Under the pieces are notes generated by a model. The model ran no database searches, was not told where the DNA came from, and was given only the letters and a program-made list of their open reading frames with translations. Made by a program: the position numbers and the translations under genes. From Collinsella sp. An307 (GTDB lineage Bacteria > Actinomycetota > Coriobacteriia > Coriobacteriales > Coriobacteriaceae), in the NCBI RefSeq assembly GCF_002161805.1, contig NZ_NFIP01000012.1:1-47179 (forward strand): 47,179 nt of DNA, in the 5' to 3' direction. How positions within the stretch are numbered: position 1 is the stretch's first letter; the number at the start of each line of letters is the position of its first letter. Below are positions 109 through 47,179 of the stretch, one piece after another.

Positions 109-148
109 GGGCGTTACAAGTGCACACGGAGCGTGACAGATGCACACA
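109..148 (+). repeat. Two 20-nt repeat units next to the IS end
   Basis: Two adjacent 20-nt units (109-128 and 129-148) fit the pattern RGCGT-N5-RTGCACAC and begin exactly where the IS homology ends. They are degenerate relatives of the array at 47009-47068 (unit AGCGTGCAGACTGCACATGG). The rest of the interval to 300 shows no gene or clear structure. Confidence 0.5.
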
Positions 149-6572: not shown

Positions 6573-7787
6573 ATGCTCTCTGTTGACGAGCAGATGCGCA
6601 TCATCACCTCAGGCGCGGCGCAGATCGTACCCGAGGCGGACCTTAGGAAGAAGCTCGAGCGCGGCGTGCCCTTGAACATCAAGCTCGGCGTCGACCCCAC
6701 CTCGCCCGACCTGCACCTGGGCCACGCGGTGCCTCTGCGCAAGATGCGCCAGTTCCAGGACCTCGGCCACAAGGTCACGCTCATCATTGGCAACGGTACG
6801 GCCATGATCGGCGACCCCTCGGGCAAGAACACCACGCGCCCGCAGCTCACGCAGGAAGAGGTCGAGGCCAACGCTGCGACCTACGTTGCGCAGGCCATGA
6901 AGATCCTGGACCCCGAGAAGACGACCATCGTCCACAACGGTGACTGGATTTTGTCGCTCGACCTGAAAGGCATGCTCGAGCTCTGCAGCAAGTTCACCGT
7001 GGCGCGCATCTTGGAGCGCGACGACTTCACCAAGCGTTACCAGAGCCAGACGCCGATTGCCCTGCACGAGTTCCTCTACCCGGTGATGCAGGCGTTTGAC
7101 TCGGTGAAGATCAAGGCCGACGTGGAGATGGGCGGCACCGACCAGCTCTTCAACCTGCTTGCCGGCCGCGAGCTCATGGAGAAGATGGACATGGAGCCGC
7201 AGGTCGCGCTCACCATGCCGCTTCTTGAGGGCACCGACGGCGTGCGTAAGATGTCCAAGTCCTACGGCAACTACGTGGGCCTCACCGACGAGCCGGCGGA
7301 CGCCTTTGGCAAGATCATGTCCATTCCGGACGAGATGATCGGCAAGTACTACCGCCTCGCCTCGACGCTCTCTGTCGACGAGGTCGACGCTATCGACGCC
7401 GCCCTTGCCGACGGCTCGGCCGACCCCTACGAGCTCAAGCGTGCCCTTGCGGTGAACATCGTCGACGCCTACCACGGGGCGGGCGCGGGCGAGGCCGCGA
7501 AGGCGGAGTTCGACCGCGTCTTTAAGGAGGACAAGCTCCCCGAGGACATCGCCGAGGTTCATGTTGACCTTACGCCGAACGACCAGGGCCTCGTATACCT
7601 TGCGGCCGTGCTTAAGGACGCCGGTCTCGCGCCCTCTGCGGGCGAGGCGCGTCGTCTGATTGACGGCGGCGGCGTCAAGATCGACCAGAAGGCGGTTGCG
7701 CCCAAGAGCTACAACGTCGACCCCACTCTTCTGCACGAGGGCTGCGTCCTGCAGGTGGGTAAGCGCAAGTACGCGCGCCTGGTGTAG
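6573..7787 (+). CDS. tyrS: Tyrosyl-tRNA synthetase
   Basis: This cytoplasmic class I synthetase of 404 residues charges tRNA-Tyr. HLGH lies at residues 48-51 (in TSPDLHLGHAVPLRKM) and KMSKS at 226-230. The tyrosine pocket contains GGTDQLFNLLAGRELM, and an S4 RNA-binding domain closes the C-terminus (PSAGEARRLIDGGGVKID). The length and the wording of the HIGH region match the TyrZ-like second type of bacterial TyrRS. Start ATG 6573 follows a consensus AGGAGG. A possible -10 (TACACT, 6494-6499) lies in the short gap upstream. I see no T-box leader: the gap is too short. Two long hairpins follow before the convergent membrane-protein gene. Confidence 0.97.
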   Translation: MLSVDEQMRIITSGAAQIVPEADLRKKLERGVPLNIKLGVDPTSPDLHLGHAVPLRKMRQFQDLGHKVTLIIGNGTAMIGDPSGKNTTRPQLTQEEVEANAATYVAQAMKILDPEKTTIVHNGDWILSLDLKGMLELCSKFTVARILERDDFTKRYQSQTPIALHEFLYPVMQAFDSVKIKADVEMGGTDQLFNLLAGRELMEKMDMEPQVALTMPLLEGTDGVRKMSKSYGNYVGLTDEPADAFGKIMSIPDEMIGKYYRLASTLSVDEVDAIDAALADGSADPYELKRALAVNIVDAYHGAGAGEAAKAEFDRVFKEDKLPEDIAEVHVDLTPNDQGLVYLAAVLKDAGLAPSAGEARRLIDGGGVKIDQKAVAPKSYNVDPTLLHEGCVLQVGKRKYARLV

Positions 7788-46611: not shown

Positions 46612-46755
46612 ATGAGTGACGAGAAGAAGACCTACAAGTTCGTCTGCGTTGTCTGTGGCTATGAGGTCGAGGTCGATACGCCCGAGCTCCCCGAGGACTA
46701 CGTCTGCCCCGTCTGCGGCGTCGGTCCCGATCAGTTCGAGCTGGTCGAGGAGTAA
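46612..46755 (+). CDS. Short rubredoxin
   Basis: A 47-residue electron-transfer protein with one iron bound by four Cys: Cys12, Cys15 (CVVCGY), Cys32 and Cys35 (CPVCG). The 16-residue gap between pairs is shorter than the about 29 of classic rubredoxins; the GxxxxGxxPGTxFExLP loop is missing, as in the rubredoxin domain of rubrerythrin. Start ATG follows AAAGGA. The neighbouring flavin reductase is the likely electron donor or partner. A terminator follows. Confidence 0.85.
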
Positions 46756-46833: not shown

Positions 46834-46920
46834 GGTGTGTGGTGGCGCCCGCTTGGTCACCCAGCCTTTCGCGCACAGCAAATGCCGCTGGATGGATCAC
46901 GCTACCATGGCGCGCTCATG

Positions 46921-47068
46921 TGCATTTCGCACGCTCTGTGTGCATATTTCACACCCTATGTGCATCTAGCACACTTTGTGTGCATCCAGCACGCCATAAG
47001 GCCCTTAAAGCGTGCGGACTGCACATGGAGCGTGCAGACTGCACATGGGGCGTGCGGATTGCACGCGA
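46921..47068. repeat. Array of seven 20-nt dyad units (four plus, three inverted)
   Basis: Units start every 20 nt at 46921, 46941, 46961 and 46981 (pattern TGCAT-N3-GCAC). After an 8-nt linker, three more units at 47009, 47029 and 47049 (AGCGTGCAGACTGCACATGG type) are the reverse complement of the same motif. Each unit carries a dyad TGTGC-N5-GCAC. The array runs to the IS end at 47071. Diverged units occur at 109-148 next to the left IS end. The unit length of 20 nt is about two helical turns, which suits a protein-binding array; the function is unknown. Confidence 0.75.
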
Positions 47069-47070
47069 AG

Positions 47071-47179
47071 GGGACTGCGGACGTTTTCCTGTACATCCTA
47101 CACCGCGTAGCCGAGCAGCCTGCGGTTCTCGTCCGGCGTCCTCCAGCCCAGCGCCGCCGACGCCCGCTCCGACCGGAAC
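47071..47179 (-). mobile_element. End of an insertion sequence (right copy, inverted)
   Basis: Bases 47071-47178 are the exact reverse complement of 1-108. The probable terminal repeat (GGGACTGCGGACG) starts at 47071. The rest of the element lies outside the window. Confidence 0.75.
47098..47179 (-). pseudogene. Transposase C-terminal fragment (cut by window edge)
   Basis: On the minus strand this is the same transposase tail as at 1-81, ending in TAG at 47100-47098. It is partial because of the window edge, so intactness is unknown. Confidence 0.6.

Follow-up and report, generated by a model that had tools for sequence, protein, structure and literature searches.

Introduction

Tagged REPs and RAYTs have been defined in previous works (PMC3733652, PMC2817692), and REPs have been described as targets of five families of insertion sequences (IS), with experimental demonstration for IS1397 and ISKpn1, both from the IS3 family (Tobes and Pareja, 2006; PMC1525189). 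Another intergenic repeat used by mobile DNA is the neisserial dRS3, with sequence ATTCCC-N8-GGGAAT, which is described in almost 700 copies (PMC3898611).

In this work, we analyzed a stretch of 47,179 nucleotides (hereafter, the window) corresponding to contig C4 of the 2.2-Mb genome of Collinsella sp. An307 (G000, 17 contigs), in which a preliminary description had noticed an array of short dyads running into an IS end. The array is a constrained, phased and extragenic repeat, with a turnover that proceeds by units, and is a hotspot for IS insertion. No such repeat was found by title in the literature on Coriobacteriia and Collinsella that we searched, and papers outside this search may exist; this family of Coriobacteriia has apparently not been described before.

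Results

The window array and its flanking insertions

The array at the right end of the window is composed of seven units, four forward and then three inverted. The forward arm (46919..46998, + strand) contains four 20-nt units of the form TGTGCA-N4-NNAC-N6, recognized by a PWM unit scan and by TRF (period 20), with starts at 46919, 46939, 46959 and 46979. The inverted arm kept on C4 (47006..47065, - strand) comprises three 20-nt units (47006-47025, 47026-47045 and 47046-47065), and two further units lie past the IS, on contig C1. A 15-nt centre (46995..47009), read from the sequence, is placed between two hexamers, GCACGC in the innermost forward unit and GCGTGC in its inverted counterpart, and overlaps the outer bases of both units. 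The preliminary description of seven units placed strictly every 20 nt was correct as to the four forward and three inverted units and their 20-nt steps in each arm, but not at the centre, where the step is 27 nt; likewise, the array spans 46919-47065 and not 46921-47068, and the TGTGC-N5-GCAC motif ascribed to every unit is absent from unit 2 (TGTGC-N5-TCAC) and from unit 7, which begins with C. With up to one mismatch allowed, TGTGCANNNNGCAC had 13 matches in the window versus 4.0 expected, a number reached by 0 of 100 shuffles, and a three-unit pattern yielded 15+11 matches in G000 versus 0+0 for a reversed-pattern control.

Upstream of the array lies a rubredoxin-like gene (46612..46755, + strand), whose convergent partner, located on contig C1, had no Pfam match. 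Downstream, the left copy of an AAG target duplication (47068..47070; the right copy is at the start of contig C1) precedes the end of an IS3-family element (47071..47179, - strand; family assigned from related copies), which displays the inverted repeat GGGACTGCGGAC, holds the last codons of the transposase and runs off the contig. At the opposite contig end (1..108, + strand) is the terminal part of another copy of this IS, followed by its GGG target duplication (109..111), the partner of which is at the end of contig C5; the repetition of the IS accounts for the breaks at the two ends of C4. Two inverted units of another array adjoin this left copy (109..146, - strand), the first one cut at the IS, and the forward arm and two inverted units of the same array are on C5. 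Previously taken as diverged, these units are regular members of the family, belonging to an array shared with C5.

Consensus, geometry and genomic setting of the repeat family

The units were found by a unit-pair search of G000 and by reading of stretches, and a profile scan of 15 arrays (G000, G006 and G007) gave the consensus TGTGCA-N4-[GT][CA]AC-GCYYYR. Counted genome-wide, as the preliminary description had proposed, the family occupies eight array loci in G000. Four of the arrays are unbroken and free of IS (C11, C12, C13 and C14), and the other four are split at contig ends by an IS, namely C5 end/C4 start, C4 end/C1 start (the window array), C3 end/C6 end, and the degenerate C15 end/C1 end. 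A remnant was also found at the C16 locus, which has nine units in G006.

The geometry of the arrays is highly regular. In the 14 arrays with a recognized centre (122 units from G000, G006 and G007), every forward unit stands before every inverted unit; steps within arms are of 20 nt in 93 of 94 cases, the remaining one being of 18 nt, and the step over the centre is of 27 nt in 13 arrays and 26 nt in one. Seven of these arrays, with 60 units in total, are from G000, where GTGC-N5-GCAC is present in 36 of the 60 units and GTGC...AC in 59. The dyad is broken in 24 of the 60, which weakens the notion of a strictly symmetric dimer site. The C3/C6 array holds a 36-bp perfect inverted repeat built of two units, which suggests an inverted duplication.

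According to the reading of ORFs and stop codons, six of the eight G000 arrays are located between convergent genes and two between tandem genes, and the proteins encoded at their flanks are unrelated (rubredoxin, penicillin-binding protein, Usp, AraC, TrkA, histidine kinase, RecF, ABC transporter). A plasmid or phage origin was discarded: no match to the array was obtained in a plasmid collection, and a viral collection gave two pattern matches, neither of them used, one being an unrelated repeat. The other, on viral contig IMGVR_UViG_3300045020_000229 (L161, ~7540-7660), is a short 20-nt-phased run of TGTGCATTTTGCAC that resembles the array units and differs in its spacers. A pattern match in Eisenbacteria (L060) was treated as chance. 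Separately, GAAGTAATGAACCCG repeats in both orientations were observed at the C13 end and the C5 start of G000, perhaps representing another array family.

Distribution and turnover of units

Within the genus, three of the nine genomes (G000, G006 and G007) contain the three-unit pattern, which is present in 3 of 65 genomes of the family, again the same three, and in 1 of 396 genomes sampled over the phylum, G000 itself; the two-unit pattern was absent from the other six genomes of the genus. As far as these genome sequences were searched, the arrays appear restricted to a small clade of gut bacteria.

Comparison among the three species revealed which parts of the repeat are stable. The ortholog of the window array, on contig C44 of G007, lacks the IS and has more inverted units. 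In a unit-by-unit alignment of five orthologous array pairs, 38 unit pairs aligned and 11 units were present on one side only. The aligned pairs differ by 1.1% at positions 2-6, 13 and 14, by 12.5% at core positions 7-10, and by 11.3% at the spacer plus position 1; only pairs with at least 14/20 identities were taken, which biases these values towards conservation, and the contrast between positions is not due to this selection alone. At the C14 locus, no array is present in G006 and a single unit remains in G007, and at the C12 locus all three genomes carry arrays (C25 in G006), with few units shared by G000 and G006. From the orthologous alignment and these two loci, it follows that GTGCA/AC is kept as whole units are gained and lost. 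The preliminary description held that the idea of a system would weaken if the units were found only in this place and varied freely; they occupy eight loci and are found in three species, and their GTGCA/AC positions are near-invariant. On contig C15 of G002 (L126, L134), the site of the C14 array is occupied by a different, long and near-perfect palindrome (TGGGGACGGGTGCGTTTTTCTCAGTTTTGGG...).

We also considered local homogenization and discarded it: the similarity among units of one array does not exceed that between arrays (0.491 versus 0.484 expected, p 0.20), a result that we kept despite counting G006_C25 as independent of its orthologue, G000 C12, as their units differ. The number of distinct cores was 41, versus 56-60 when columns were shuffled independently, a low diversity that may indicate either that the units are related genome-wide or that the columns are jointly constrained.

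Family and insertion sites of the IS

In G000, 14 contig ends carry the IS, seven with the left end (GGGACTGCGGAC) and seven with the right end (GGGAC[TC]GCGGAC), and they pair into seven insertions. Target duplications of 3 bp are typical of the IS3 family, and equal 3-bp duplications were identified at all seven joined sites (AAG, GGG, ATC, CTT, ATA, AAT and CTC), in agreement with that family. The G000 copies are cut at contig ends, so the family was assigned through related copies, whose transposases display rve plus HTH_21 domains; the IS3 model NF033516 (cut-off 160) scored 185.6 bits for the G001 copy with GGGACCGC ends and 228.9 bits for a sibling in G004, and no IS30 model was among the profile matches listed for these two transposases. 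By these sequence features, the element is assigned to the IS3 family and not to IS30, the family with which its target choice had initially been compared.

Mapping of the insertions placed three of the seven in arrays, namely AAG (in the right-hand array of the window), GGG and ATC. With the arrays taken as 1.6 kb, the probability of at least three of seven by chance is 1e-8 when the whole genome is considered, and 5e-6 if intergenic DNA is assumed to total 300 kb. The insertion point within the unit differs, being at positions 16-18 in two cases and at 7-9 in one. The CTT insertion (C16 end/C13 start) lies inside a long inverted repeat with 31-nt arms (score 25) that is unrelated to the TGTGCA arrays, and the three remaining insertions score 6, 7 and 8, values within the background, for which positions drawn at random in the window gave a 95th percentile of 10. 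In G007, the IS end had no match.

Copies with GGGACYGC ends were identified in G006 (C20), G001 (C41) and G002 (C14 and C5), and all four are flanked by direct repeats (scores 12-18; background 95th percentile, 10) and by inverted repeats (13-18; 95th percentile, 12), those of G002 having been scored near the IS only. None of the six flanks of sibling copies with GGGGATGC ends exceeded the direct-repeat background (scores 6-8), and two of these copies are near hairpins (inverted scores 15 and 11). The scoring covered copies with terminal repeats and a locus, leaving out six lower IS-end match rows, of which five had no terminal repeat and the sixth, at a contig start, had no locus.

Of the four related copies outside G000, one is located at the TGTGCA family and three at repeats of unrelated sequence. 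The first, on G006 C20 (L157), is inside a TGTGCA array whose orthologous locus in G000 (C15 end/C1 end) is split by an unrelated IS that starts with GGCTTATAGGACAAAATG and has an 8-bp duplication, GCATATCA. One degenerate array locus was therefore entered by two IS types in two species. The G001 C41 copy adjoins an array of a GTATAC family; the pattern used gave 26 forward matches in G001 and 6 in G003, and the remaining seven genomes of the genus had no match. The units of this family, GGTATACRCAA, alternate in orientation with 19/23-nt steps and, in several copies, border a conserved segment of ~90 nt; the loci are on contigs C17, C32, C41, C42, C44, C49, C64, C65, C73 and C78 of G001, and C3, C8, C9 and C21 of G003 (those fetched, L172-L181).

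The preference of the IS for arrays, proposed in the preliminary description, was thus supported by the three insertions in G000, by the orthologous G007 array without IS, and by the related copies at repeat arrays elsewhere. The similarity between unit and IS end, offered then as the basis of targeting, was seen in one window unit, and was ruled out as the cause because, in G001 and G002, non-TGTGCA repeats are the sites of copies whose ends are almost identical.

Discussion

We propose that the window array is probably a lineage-specific extragenic repeat array of the REP/BIME or NIME kind, with units putatively read by a protein, which serves as a landing site for an IS3-family element. The units constitute arrowheads aimed at a centre of constant length (15 nt), mostly in the spaces that separate convergent genes, and their near-invariant GTGCA/AC could be read by a putative sequence-specific DNA-binding protein, either a host factor or the transposase, with successive dimers along the array. 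The number of units may be altered through slippage or unequal exchange. By analogy with IS1397 and ISKpn1, which use palindromic units, the IS3-family transposase, or the unit-reading protein, could steer insertion to the arrays, which would thus represent safe targets outside genes. Against array targeting, four of the seven IS copies in G000 are outside the TGTGCA arrays, and the enrichment in arrays may partly reflect the survival of insertions in harmless convergent spaces.

An RNA element is a tentative and rather doubtful alternative, according to which the array is transcribed from the convergent genes and forms one long hairpin that ends transcription or protects 3' ends, with pairing as the constraint. 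Its setting between convergent genes in six of eight cases is consistent with this function, as is the predicted fold of the window array (-85.7 kcal/mol versus -52.8 +/- 3.7 for shuffled sequences, z -8.9), and long hairpins were modelled for all 14 centred arrays; this and the comparison of arms left out the degenerate C15/C1-end array, in which no centre was found. However, partner units of the two arms are barely more alike at the core than expected by chance (0.46 versus 0.37, p 0.02), and the excess is gone without the innermost pair (p 0.31), which indicates little compensatory pairing. Furthermore, two arrays lie between tandem genes, the constant bases are identical across arrays when pairing alone would permit any complementary letters, and no Rfam family exceeded its gathering score, the two matches to MIR4239 being far below it and ignored.

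It also seems unlikely that the arrays are non-autonomous elements of the REPIN type, produced by a RAYT-like tyrosine transposase of the genus, with a recognition sequence that has drifted and left each lineage with its own unit. A RAYT-like gene does follow the same 393-aa gene in G000, G006, G007 and apparently G001 (L170 on C10, L168 on C22, L165 on C18 and L166 on C31, respectively); it matches NCBIfam REP_Tyr_transpos with 63 bits in G007, the one copy scored and below the cut-off of 80, and PF01797 matches of similar strength are also present in G002 and G003. Moreover, the genomes with RAYT-like genes are those with some array family (TGTGCA in G000, G006 and G007; GTATAC in G001 and G003; other repeats in G002), but this correlation is confounded by descent, and unknown arrays were sought in genomes other than G004, G005 and G008. 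RAYT-made REPINs have a RAYT gene with cognate repeats beside it, and neither the four loci named above have array units nearby nor was any unit pair found within ~1.5 kb of ten Y1_Tnp loci; in addition, no GTAG or CGTC tag occupies a constant unit position. As a candidate array maker, the RAYT-like gene is a lead at most.

We regard as similarly improbable a broader proposal, in which one IS3 subgroup would follow the unrelated array families of sister lineages (TGTGCA, GTATAC, and others in G002) whatever their sequence. Its transposase would read an architecture, such as dyads in phase, hairpins able to extrude or a host protein bound to all arrays, and not a motif, and the arrays would be written by a vertically inherited RAYT-like enzyme with a drifting recognition site.

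That the units form an operator array, binding one transcription factor that controls the flanking genes, is very unlikely: the sequence-specific near-invariance of GTGCA/AC and the regular phasing would fit such a role, but most arrays are found where the 3' ends of convergent genes meet, the flanking genes are unrelated, and arrays are missing at some orthologous loci. Finally, hardly any probability remains for the arrays as IS debris (end fragments or target-site copies), as suggested by a GGACTGC common to the IS end and one unit, which is refuted by the three arrays of G007, where no IS-end match was found, and opposed by the C11-C14 arrays of G000, without IS.

Returning to the reading of a lineage-specific extragenic array, its resemblance to REP/BIME elements includes the extragenic and species-specific location, downstream of genes, the presence of units in opposite orientations, and a quick turnover, but in contrast to those described, the Collinsella arrays are low-copy, no RAYT with flanking units was found, and all forward units precede all inverted ones, as opposed to an alternating order (PMC2817692, PMC3733652). 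REPs carry a GTAG or CGTC tag by an imperfect palindrome and often exceed 100 copies; here, CGTC is present in some cores only, and the 60 units of G000 belong to seven centred arrays, with extragenic units in opposite orientation as in BIMEs. With the neisserial dRS3/NIME, as described, the family shares units of 20 bp with conserved ends and a variable middle, intergenic clusters, and use by mobile DNA (PMC3898611). It differs in having ~60 units in eight arrays, an unrelated sequence, no RS elements between units, and a fixed arrowhead plus centre (PMC3898611); the Collinsella consensus does not correspond to the dRS3 motif with RS elements that defines those repeats.

Another parallel concerns the IS. 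In the cases described, IS1397 and ISKpn1 in palindromic units of E. coli and Klebsiella, and ISPsy8 and ISPpu9/10 in Pseudomonas REPs, are likewise found in intergenic palindromic repeats, the first two belonging, as does the Collinsella element, to the IS3 family, and related elements are at different repeats in different species (PMC1525189). Unlike IS1397 and ISKpn1, the target in Collinsella is a phased multi-unit array and not a REP palindrome, the preference is deduced from positions, and the insertion point within the unit varies (PMC1525189). The landing of IS in repeats is known from other bacteria; in Collinsella, it is linked to repeats that differ entirely from one sister lineage to the next. 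Since sister species have orthologous, empty and collapsed array sites, unit turnover can be measured, and the presence of one IS subgroup at repeats of unrelated sequence constitutes a natural experiment on whether transposases that target REPs recognize sequence or architecture.
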